From an uncultured Flavobacteriaceae bacterium (GTDB lineage: Bacteria > Bacteroidota > Bacteroidia > Flavobacteriales > Flavobacteriaceae): DNA of 64,000 bases. The notes under the pieces were generated by a model, which was given only the letters and a program-made list of their open reading frames with translations, was not told the origin of the DNA and ran no database searches. This document shows positions 42,853 to 43,663 of this stretch, piece after piece (position 1 is the stretch's first letter; every line of letters starts with the position of its first letter). The stretch is from NCBI GenBank assembly GCA_947494565.1, contig CANLVG010000007.1:186001-250000 (forward strand), in the 5' to 3' direction. A program made the position numbers and the translations under genes.

Positions 42853-42886
42853 GAAAGCCCCAAGTTTCCCTGAGGCTTTGAATTTA
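42853..42886 (-). terminator. Hairpin after the distal tRNA tail
   Basis: On the minus strand AAAGCCTCAGGGAAACTTGGGGCTTT forms a hairpin directly after the tRNA tail at 42888. An almost identical hairpin follows the real tRNA (43553-43588). Confidence 0.7.
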
Positions 42887-42887
42887 G

Positions 42888-42913
42888 TAGCGGGGACTGG
42901 ACTCGAACCGGCG
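42888..42913 (-). repeat. Copy of the tRNA-fMet 3' tail (distal)
   Basis: 26 bp matching the T-arm and acceptor 3' strand of the initiator tRNA at 43591-43616 with one mismatch (CCGGCG for CCAGCG in plus-strand reading). Confidence 0.9.
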
Positions 42914-42939
42914 TCCGCCTCTGGCGGATATGGGCCGGA

Positions 42940-43197
42940 CTATGCCCCAAGATCGATATGTTGATCGATCCATTTTCTGCCGACTCCCGATTTAAGGAAT
43001 TTTTCCCTTTTCAGGGCATCGCTCTTGGTATTGAAGAATTCGACGTGAACGACCTTCCAAGGTCTCAATTTAACCGTCCATCCCTTGGTCCCGAGGGTAT
43101 TGTGCGATTTGAACCGGGCAATGAGGTTTCCGGTACACCCGACGTACTTTTTGCCGAACTTTTTAGAGAATAGAATGTAGACGACGAAACTCTCCTT
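42940..43197 (-). pseudogene. GIY-YIG nuclease-like gene, copy A, start codon lost
   Basis: The body is intact in one frame: VYILFSKKFGKKYVGCTGNL, FKSHNTLGTKGW, then ALKREKFLKSGVGRKWIDQH to the stop. This is the compact single-domain GIY-YIG family; the VYI and YVG blocks stand for GIY and YIG, and the catalytic-type Arg and Glu regions are present. Where copy B has ATG, copy A has AAG, so the normal start is gone. The frame is open upstream as far as the TAG stop of copy B and reads through the tRNA tail, so another start is possible but none is convincing. Confidence 0.7.
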
Positions 43198-43241
43198 AAC
43201 AAAGAAGCCTCTCAGTTTCCTGAAAGGCTTGATTTTACTAG

Positions 43242-43267
43242 TAGCGGGGACTGGACTCGAACCAGCG
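43242..43267 (-). repeat. Copy of the tRNA-fMet 3' tail (proximal)
   Basis: 26 bp identical to the 3' end of the initiator tRNA at 43591-43616, followed on the minus strand by a hairpin (43205-43240). Confidence 0.92.
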
Positions 43268-43293
43268 TCCGCCTCTGGCGGATATGGGCCGGA

Positions 43294-43550
43294 CTATGCC
43301 CCAAGATCGATATGTTGATCGATCCATTTTCTGCCGACTCCCGATTTAAGGAATTTTTCCCTTTTCAGGGCATCGCTCTTGGTATTGAAGAATTCGACGT
43401 GAACGACCTTCCAAGGTCTCAATTTAACCGTCCATCCCTTGGTCCTGAGGGTATTGTGCGATTTGAACCGGCAATGAGGTTTCCGGTACACCCGACGTAC
43501 TTTTTGCCGAACTTTTTAGAGAATAGAATGTAGATGACGAAACTCTCCAT
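43294..43550 (-). pseudogene. GIY-YIG nuclease-like gene, copy B, frameshifted
   Basis: Starts with ATG (MESFVIYILFSKKFGKK) and ends with the same WIDQHIDLGA tail as copy A. One base is missing near 43472 relative to copy A (CCGGCAATG against CCGGGCAATG in plus-strand reading), which breaks the frame after GNLIA. The two halves are therefore in different frames. The lesion differs from that of copy A, so the copies decayed independently. Confidence 0.85.
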
Positions 43551-43552
43551 AA

Positions 43553-43588
43553 TAAGAAAGCCCCAAGTTTCCCTGAGGCTTTGAATTT
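43553..43588 (-). terminator. Terminator of the initiator tRNA
   Basis: Hairpin of the AAAGCCTCAGGG / CTTGGGGCTTT type starting 2 bp after the tRNA 3' end on the minus strand, followed by CTTATT. Confidence 0.75.
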
Positions 43589-43590
43589 AG

Positions 43591-43663
43591 TAGCGGGGAC
43601 TGGACTCGAACCAGCGACCTTCGGGTTATGAGCCCGACGAGCTACCTACTGCTCTACCCCGCG
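43591..43663 (-). tRNA. Initiator tRNA-fMet (anticodon CAT)
   Basis: 73 nt with a complete cloverleaf. Acceptor CGCGGGG pairs with CCCCGC and leaves C1 unpaired against U72, discriminator A73. The anticodon loop reads CTCATAA, flanked by GGG/CCC: three G-C pairs, the hallmark of initiator tRNA. The T-loop is GGTTCGAGTCC. CCA is not encoded. It is the parent of the two tail copies downstream. Confidence 0.95.

Follow-up and report, generated by a model that had tools for sequence, protein, structure and literature searches.

Two nuclease units beside an initiator tRNA gene

Within the window, that is, the whole stretch of 64,000 nucleotides of uncultured Flavobacteriaceae DNA that was analysed, an intact tRNA-fMet gene is followed, in minus-strand order, by a terminator, a first GIY-YIG nuclease frame, a palindrome, a copied tRNA tail, a terminator, a second frame, a second palindrome, a second tail and a last terminator (Table 1). 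The repeats of this array are spaced at 354, 353 and 703, in agreement with the two units of 354 and 349 bp that an earlier note on this DNA had placed downstream of the tRNA. In the repeat analysis the two units share 99% identity along 233 nt and 90% along another 107 nt, and the tail and terminator at 42848-42916 are 97% identical to 43551-43619. The tRNA is the sole match in an Rfam scan of the window, and a Pfam search of the window's own genome recovers both units; no further copy or second locus of the unit was found in these 5.39 Mb.

Table 1. Features of the array at tRNA-fMet, listed from the tRNA outwards
Feature	Position	Strand	Basis
Intact initiator tRNA-fMet (CAT)	43590..43663	-	ARAGORN; Rfam tRNA, 64.9 bits
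Terminator hairpin 3' of the intact tRNA-fMet	43555..43582	-	Sequence; repeat family D3
Unit 1 (tRNA-proximal) GIY-YIG gene, frame broken mid-gene	43294..43550	-	ORF list, Pfam search, sequence
Unit 1 palindrome, 6-bp stem and 3-nt loop, in the place of the 3' side of the fMet anticodon arm	43268..43282	-	Palindrome search
First copied fMet tail, T arm to tRNA end	43239..43267	-	Repeat analysis
Terminator hairpin of the first tail copy, unlike the other two terminators	43201..43229	-	Sequence
Unit 2 GIY-YIG frame, open, without ATG/GTG/TTG start	42940..43197	-	ORF list; Pfam
Unit 2 palindrome	42914..42928	-	Palindrome search
Second copied fMet tail, the probable native end in displaced position	42885..42913	-	Repeats; outer flank aligns with one relative's empty site
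Terminator hairpin, near-identical to that 3' of the intact tRNA	42851..42878	-	Repeat family D3

A terminator and a GIY-YIG gene had been assigned to each unit, and PF01541 matches and terminators are indeed present in both, the distal frame matching PF01541 above its cut-off (E 7.6e-14), but both frames are damaged. The proximal ORF, with its ATG at 43550, is spread over two reading frames; since frame 1 is thus split and frame 2 has no ATG, GTG or TTG start, neither nuclease copy of the window is plainly intact.

The stretch that the earlier note described as a GC-rich spacer is present, but its nature had been missed, as it is part of an fMet copy bearing a perfect hairpin; the tail copy had also been measured too short at 26 bp, the copied tRNA piece taking in bases of the anticodon region. 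The palindrome (TCCGCC-AGA-GGCGGA) is perfect and occurs twice, once per unit, against an expectation of 0.17 with up to 2 mismatches, and TATCCGCCNNNGGCGGA is confined to the window units within the whole genome; a base-shuffle of the window-unit junction stretch alone is not significant, 11 of 100 shuffles being as good. Ahead of the palindrome the window reads GGCCCATA, and L046, L049 and L166 read GGCTCATA; these bases derive from the fMet anticodon region, and for that reason the displaced piece is read as a hairpin-bearing tRNA fragment with a decayed ORF-side end, in which the palindrome replaces the rest of the anticodon arm up to the T stem. A longer fMet stretch, from the D arm onward, is retained in L049. 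A tRNA-like fold of the displaced copy was considered and rejected, because shuffled sequences fold as well as the window copies (z -0.44 and -0.78) and no 5' partner strand is seen in L043.

The nuclease is encoded by a lone gene of ~85 residues. The structure was modelled for the L043 homologue, not for the window protein, and shows a single 84-residue GIY-YIG fold with no further domain (pLDDT 91.5, pTM 0.80). Profile and fold searches rank UPF0213 and SLX1 first among the solved structures, not homing enzymes, with I-TevI reaching only E 1.5 in the fold search. All four scanned proteins contain PF01541, two of them also T5orf172, and the single NCBIfam match, for L048, lies far under its cut-off.

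Relatives in the genus, the family and the phylum

The window protein has a match in 8 of the 14 genomes of the genus, the window's included. Ten of the 20 genus matches outside the window have a full tRNA (Met, Arg, Phe, Asp or Leu) in the locus, one (L029, at a contig end) has a tRNA-like tail only, and nine are without either. The tRNA-linked loci follow two layouts, a tail form consisting of full tRNA, ORF, hairpin and tail, and a head form consisting of head, hairpin, ORF and full tRNA; the latter, a mirror image at the tRNA 5' end, had been overlooked in the earlier note, which knew the 3'-end layout only. Seven of eight loci from named records carry whole or partial fMet units built to this plan, the eighth (L048) having the ORF ahead of a tRNA-Ala. 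An inverted tRNA-Arg tail piece lies in frame within the first GIY-YIG ORF of L040 (G007:C7).

The fMet flank is readable in 11 genomes of the genus and was inspected by eye over 330 nt; the ORF is present only in the window's, and of the other ten flanks five are clean and five bear ORF-less tail scars with other hairpins. The unit is, then, a present/absent polymorphism at one fMet site among close relatives. The far flank of the window array aligns clearly with the empty site L182 of G008 (score 54, shuffle maximum 39) and marginally with L190 of G012 (39 against a shuffle maximum of 37), five other relatives not rising above shuffles. Empty sites, which with precise tail duplication had been named as a sign of mobility, could also stem from deletion between tails; the tRNA tails are too conserved for carried and displaced ends to be set apart as foreign and native by sequence. 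The search of related Flavobacteriaceae for GIY-YIG ORFs flanked by tRNA tails, which had also been suggested, shows many tRNA loci to bear them, and the pattern that the earlier note had set against its own reading, the same two units fixed here in all relatives with none elsewhere, is not what is seen.

For the family survey, a profile (A2) was built from 12 ORFs picked from tRNA-linked loci (L029 lying only beside a tRNA-like tail), so that the fractions below are biased to linked matches and hold for this group, not for small GIY-YIG genes at large. At E <= 1e-6, A2 has matches in 114 of 149 Flavobacteriaceae genomes, with up to 22 in a single genome, and none in the remaining 35. The 150 matches listed fall into 110 family loci, 79 of which have a full tRNA within 200 bp of the ORF, the next six 200-bp shells holding a tRNA in 6, 1, 1, 0, 1 and 0 loci; all 88 tRNAs within 200 bp lie on the ORF's strand and 0 on the opposite one. 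The other 31 loci comprise 8 with tRNA pieces only, 2 with a tRNA at 200-500 bp, 6 with a tmRNA, 3 at contig ends and 12 without any of these. A tRNA piece lies within 500 bp in 53 of the 110 loci and farther away in 1. Where such pieces lie near a full tRNA, 65 of 76 are of the same kind; ten of the 11 discordant pieces are in tRNA-Val loci (9 on the ORF strand, 1 on the other) and one is at an Arg/Pro locus. The ten Val-locus pieces are odd tRNA-like copies labelled SeC, Stop or Lys by ARAGORN, and are read as hairpin-altered Val copies.

Across Bacteroidota, matches at E <= 1e-10 were obtained in 206 of 345 genomes and 112 of 161 genera. A set of 45 phylum loci from 16 families, not drawn at random and with 42 loci outside the window's family, was examined, and 40 of these have a tRNA within 200 bp (38 of the 40 outside the window's family). 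All 43 tRNAs within that distance are on the ORF's strand, the next six shells holding a tRNA in 0-2 loci each, and a lenient search finds a further piece of the tRNA somewhere in the locus in 38 of the 40. No tRNA was found beside 14 other GIY-YIG loci, which is a weak control; because 12 of the 14 were already known from an earlier result to be tRNA-free, the distance shells were used as the control instead. One of 10 chance DNA-match places has a tRNA within 200 bp, the query itself having contained tRNA sequence.

Beyond chromosomal genomes, the window protein (query P0001) has no match at E <= 1e-3 in a phage collection of 50,697 records, and one query each of plasmids and of viral contigs returned no relative; a phage, plasmid or viral origin, considered on these single queries, found no match. 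The units of L072, L086, L091, L100 and L125 sit at contig ends, for which reason units may be under-counted through assemblies breaking in arrays.

Displaced tRNA pieces and the hairpins at their junctions

A strict test for a displaced copy, applied to 122 locus-tRNA pairs, found one in 73, spanning 19 anticodon kinds, and none in 49. A strong hairpin stands at 60 of the 73 junctions; in the 46 nt alongside, only 2 of 73 have one. When the bases of each of the 60 are shuffled 100 times, 7 of them, including the window unit, are equalled by more than 5 shuffles. The position at which the tRNA copy gives way to the hairpin recurs within tRNA kinds, lying at 22 in 7/7 Arg-TCG and 4/4 Ala heads, at 24 in 3/3 Leu heads, at 48-49 in 8 of 11 Met tails and at 57-62 in 13 tails of seven amino acids. 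Within one tRNA kind the letters of the hairpin vary and the pairing is kept, as in the Arg-TCT hairpins CCCGAT/ATCGGG and CCCGCT/AGCGGG, and some hairpins are common to different tRNA kinds. The displaced copy is broken by its hairpin and the restored tRNA sequence is intact; the restored tRNA would still bear the target, so that self-cutting would have to be tolerated or prevented somehow.

Three fMet arrays with no full tRNA in the locus (L042, L144 and L166) all start at base C32 with an intact anticodon arm, and the Ala array L148 starts in the same loop. In L144, a short upstream stretch resembles the start of the fMet locus, so that this one may be no new site but a tRNA locus whose 5' half is gone.

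The exact palindromes are few per genome, a rarity on which the idea of a generic dispersed repeat was rejected, yet they also occur at ordinary intergenic places away from tRNAs. The perfect palindrome TCCCGATAGCTATCGGGA is found at 17 sites in G146, a genome rich in these nucleases, and 3 times in G012, which has no nuclease match. Three tested palindromes are missing from all 8 nuclease-free genomes searched outside the genus, and also from 3 of 11 nuclease-bearing ones. The hairpin TATCCGCCTAAGGCGGA of L170 (G159:C5) was also seen, by eye, within an apparent 23S rRNA gene.

Nuclease lineages and possible explanations

In a tree of 109 nucleases from which the window's were excluded and in which 81 rows are labelled by tRNA kind, the kind changes 24 times, against a mean of 61.3 and a minimum of 56 in 200 shuffles, and for the layout, head or tail, there are 11 changes where shuffled data give 27. 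Starred groups are those of fMet with 8 rows, Leu with 7, Phe with 5 (in two of which no tRNA lies within 200 bp), Pro-TGG heads with 4 and Ser with 2. Exceptions to this tracking are Asn and Asp, each split over two groups, one group that mixes Arg-ACG, Arg-TCG, Ala and Met, a Val row that sits with the tmRNA-linked ones, and an Asn group that takes in one Met and one Arg-CCT row. Since a homing element would stay with its own tRNA, the tracking is compatible with protein-borne and with element-borne specificity, and cannot separate the two.

The median dN/dS of 0.15, obtained from 18 usable pairs of 63, some of which share an array and three of which join tRNA-unlinked loci, and the presence of stops in 14 of 191 frames indicate that the nuclease ORF of the relatives is under purifying selection. 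The 22 nucleases that are linked to fMet or resemble those that are cluster by bacterial family with 4 changes, the fewest possible (9.3 on average in shuffles), which speaks for long vertical persistence over wide transfer, the latter being unsupported for the fMet nucleases at the scale of families.

Several clades lie outside the tRNA-linked pattern. L080, L116, L120, L128, L136 and L139 form one nuclease clade with a tmRNA upstream on the same strand at gaps of 197-421 bp, and hairpin-like repeats are seen by eye in the interval between tmRNA and ORF; blast found no copied tmRNA piece at the tmRNA-linked loci, and a T-arm-like copied piece was noticed in L136 by eye only. L089, L092, L097, L101, L104 and L161 form a well-supported clade in which no tRNA or tmRNA was found nearby, and the same holds for a second well-supported clade of L121, L133 and L149.

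Two known systems come close to the units. SegB of phages T4 and T6, as described in two reports (PMC13096335, PMC2988022), is a free-standing homing endonuclease of the GIY-YIG type, encoded in the tRNA region of the phage; that of T6 cuts within tRNA genes and causes tandem amplification of the tRNA-segB segment, and segB adjoins tRNA genes in many phages. By our own comparison, the SegB motif given there, RAWTSGAAC, is the reverse complement of a T-arm sequence. Like SegB so described, the GIY-YIG gene of the units adjoins tRNA genes of many kinds; unlike it, the units reside in bacterial chromosomes, encode a single-domain protein of ~85 residues, form nuclease clades that track tRNA kind and mark a displaced fragment of the same tRNA with a hairpin. 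A close sequence relation to SegB or its phage homologues is not supported, the window protein having no match in the phage collection. The mORFs of fungal mitochondria (Allomyces, Glomus) are endonuclease ORFs that carry their own copy of the host gene's 3' end, forming a hybrid host gene and displacing the native end downstream (PMC3630166). The tail units likewise have a copy of the host-gene end, with the probably native end displaced beyond the ORF; however, the hosts of mORFs are mitochondrial protein genes and their enzymes mostly LAGLIDADG, whereas the host of the units is a tRNA gene, and the portions of that report available describe neither a 5' (head) form nor a junction hairpin (PMC3630166). 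The units thus appear to join the logics of mORFs and SegB in a bacterial chromosomal setting, where tRNA genes are the hosts and the displaced fragment bears a hairpin; within the terms and library searched, no such units have been described for bacterial chromosomes.

Other comparisons are more distant. Group I introns with homing endonucleases occur in tRNA genes and in this way likewise associate endonuclease genes with tRNA genes, but the tRNA of the window is intact and no intron family appears in its Rfam scan. For the UPF0213 and SLX1 nucleases, nearest to the unit nuclease by profile and fold among solved structures, we know of no linkage to tRNA; SLX1 acts on branched DNA together with a partner protein.

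On balance, the units are probably a very small selfish element of the homing type, a lone GIY-YIG gene of ~85 residues living at one kind of tRNA gene in the manner of the fungal mORFs and SegB, in which we infer that the unit nuclease brings about both cleavage and movement. In the model proposed here, the element of ~300-350 bp would carry one end of its host tRNA, that is, a tail with a terminator in the 3' layout or a head in the 5' layout, and would insert at a fixed point of the tRNA gene, restoring the full tRNA on one side and displacing the original fragment, marked by the hairpin, to the far side. The nuclease would break an unoccupied tRNA gene at an arm, following which repair would copy the element from an occupied locus with the tRNA pieces serving as homology arms, and the hairpin would protect the displaced copy from cutting or prevent its use as a tRNA. 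If the restored tRNA is broken in turn, or repeats exchange with one another, the unit may expand into the tandem arrays that are seen; the window itself holds two decayed units at tRNA-fMet. The homing-type insertion at a tRNA 3' end with regeneration of the tail, which the earlier note had put forward, remains the best fit to the relatives, with equivalent units at other tRNA kinds, patchy fMet sites and one clear flank match in its favour, while movement and cleavage enter it as suppositions. Also in its favour are the closeness and shared strand of the tRNAs, the same-kind tRNA pieces, the junction hairpins, the tracking of tRNA kind, the purifying selection and the arrays that begin at C32. 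Weighing against it are the target that the restored tRNA would keep, the grouping of fMet nucleases by family, a fold and profile closer to UPF0213 and SLX1 than to I-TevI, the bias of A2, the loci and pairs that lack a tRNA or a displaced copy, the exceptions to the tracking and the empty-handed phage, plasmid and viral searches.

Against this, it may be held that the GIY-YIG gene is a non-mobile gene kept by the host, for instance for promoting the number of tRNA gene copies, and passed on vertically, with the fragments and arrays arising from unequal recombination. The grouping of the fMet nucleases by bacterial family, the purifying selection, the near-identical copies within arrays and the precise empty sites, explicable as deletions between repeats, are all in keeping with such a gene, which we nevertheless regard as unlikely because of the patchy distribution (the ORF standing at fMet only in the window genome among the 11 readable, and genomes ranging from 22 matches to none, as in 35 of 149), the arrays that open partway through a tRNA at loci where no full one is present and the displaced copies at 19 anticodon kinds. 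Similarly improbable is that an SLX1-like nuclease opens cruciforms at the hairpin and leaves the intact tRNA gene alone, the tRNA pieces only guiding the broken ends during repair. UPF0213 and SLX1 as nearest solved structures, a model with no domain added to the single 84-residue fold, and hairpins at 60 of 73 junctions with pairing kept as sequence varies would suit that activity; the three fMet arrays running from base 32 with an intact arm argue instead for a break in an intact tRNA copy and not in the hairpin, and the clades track tRNA kind while one hairpin serves several kinds.

It could further be supposed that the hairpins are no part of the element, but a separate, REP-like palindrome, dispersed in its own right, for which dead tRNA copies are a place to settle. 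Ordinary intergenic occurrences of the same palindromes, and the 17 sites of TCCCGATAGCTATCGGGA in one genome and its 3 in the nuclease-free G012, lend some colour to this idea; it is made distinctly doubtful, more so than the two readings above, by the contrast of 60 of 73 junctions with 2 of 73 neighbouring stretches, by boundaries that recur by tRNA kind (22 in all seven Arg-TCG heads) and by the lack of the three palindromes in the 8 nuclease-free genomes outside the genus, tempered by their lack in 3 of 11 nuclease-bearing ones. Tyrosine-recombinase islands have tRNA tails as direct repeats, so that the tails could in principle be attachment-site scars of such an island at tRNA-fMet. This is highly improbable, as tRNA 5' ends show the layout too and the units have room solely for the GIY-YIG frame and frames overlapping it, with no integrase, in line with the earlier note's statement that the nuclease is not one.

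Should the homing reading be true, tRNA genes across a bacterial phylum would carry minute nuclease parasites in 5' and 3' forms, marked by a hairpin and with lineages tied to tRNA kinds, as a bacterial chromosomal counterpart of the fungal mORFs and phage SegB. It would explain many of the small GIY-YIG genes, tRNA fragments and short arrays found next to tRNAs, and nature would thereby supply a set of matched nucleases and targets in which to see how a single 85-residue domain gains specificity. A bolder version, which we hold to be rather a long shot, is that these phylum-wide elements of ~300-350 bp consist of a lone SLX1-like domain whose target is set by their own hairpin and tRNA fragment, acting either as a DNA cruciform or as a guide RNA, locking each lineage to its tRNA gene. 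Elements of this size would be the smallest self-promoting ones known to us.

Arrays without the ORF were also encountered. Tandem arrays of head and hairpin lie just upstream of a full tRNA in L108 (983-1310, ORF-oriented), L110 (860-1149) and L171, at fMet and Arg-TCT, and resemble non-autonomous copies. After tRNA-fMet, ORF-less tail scars or short arrays are present in L043 (~3340-3700), L183, L184, L187, L188 and L191, which by eye bear a different hairpin, placed in the T loop.
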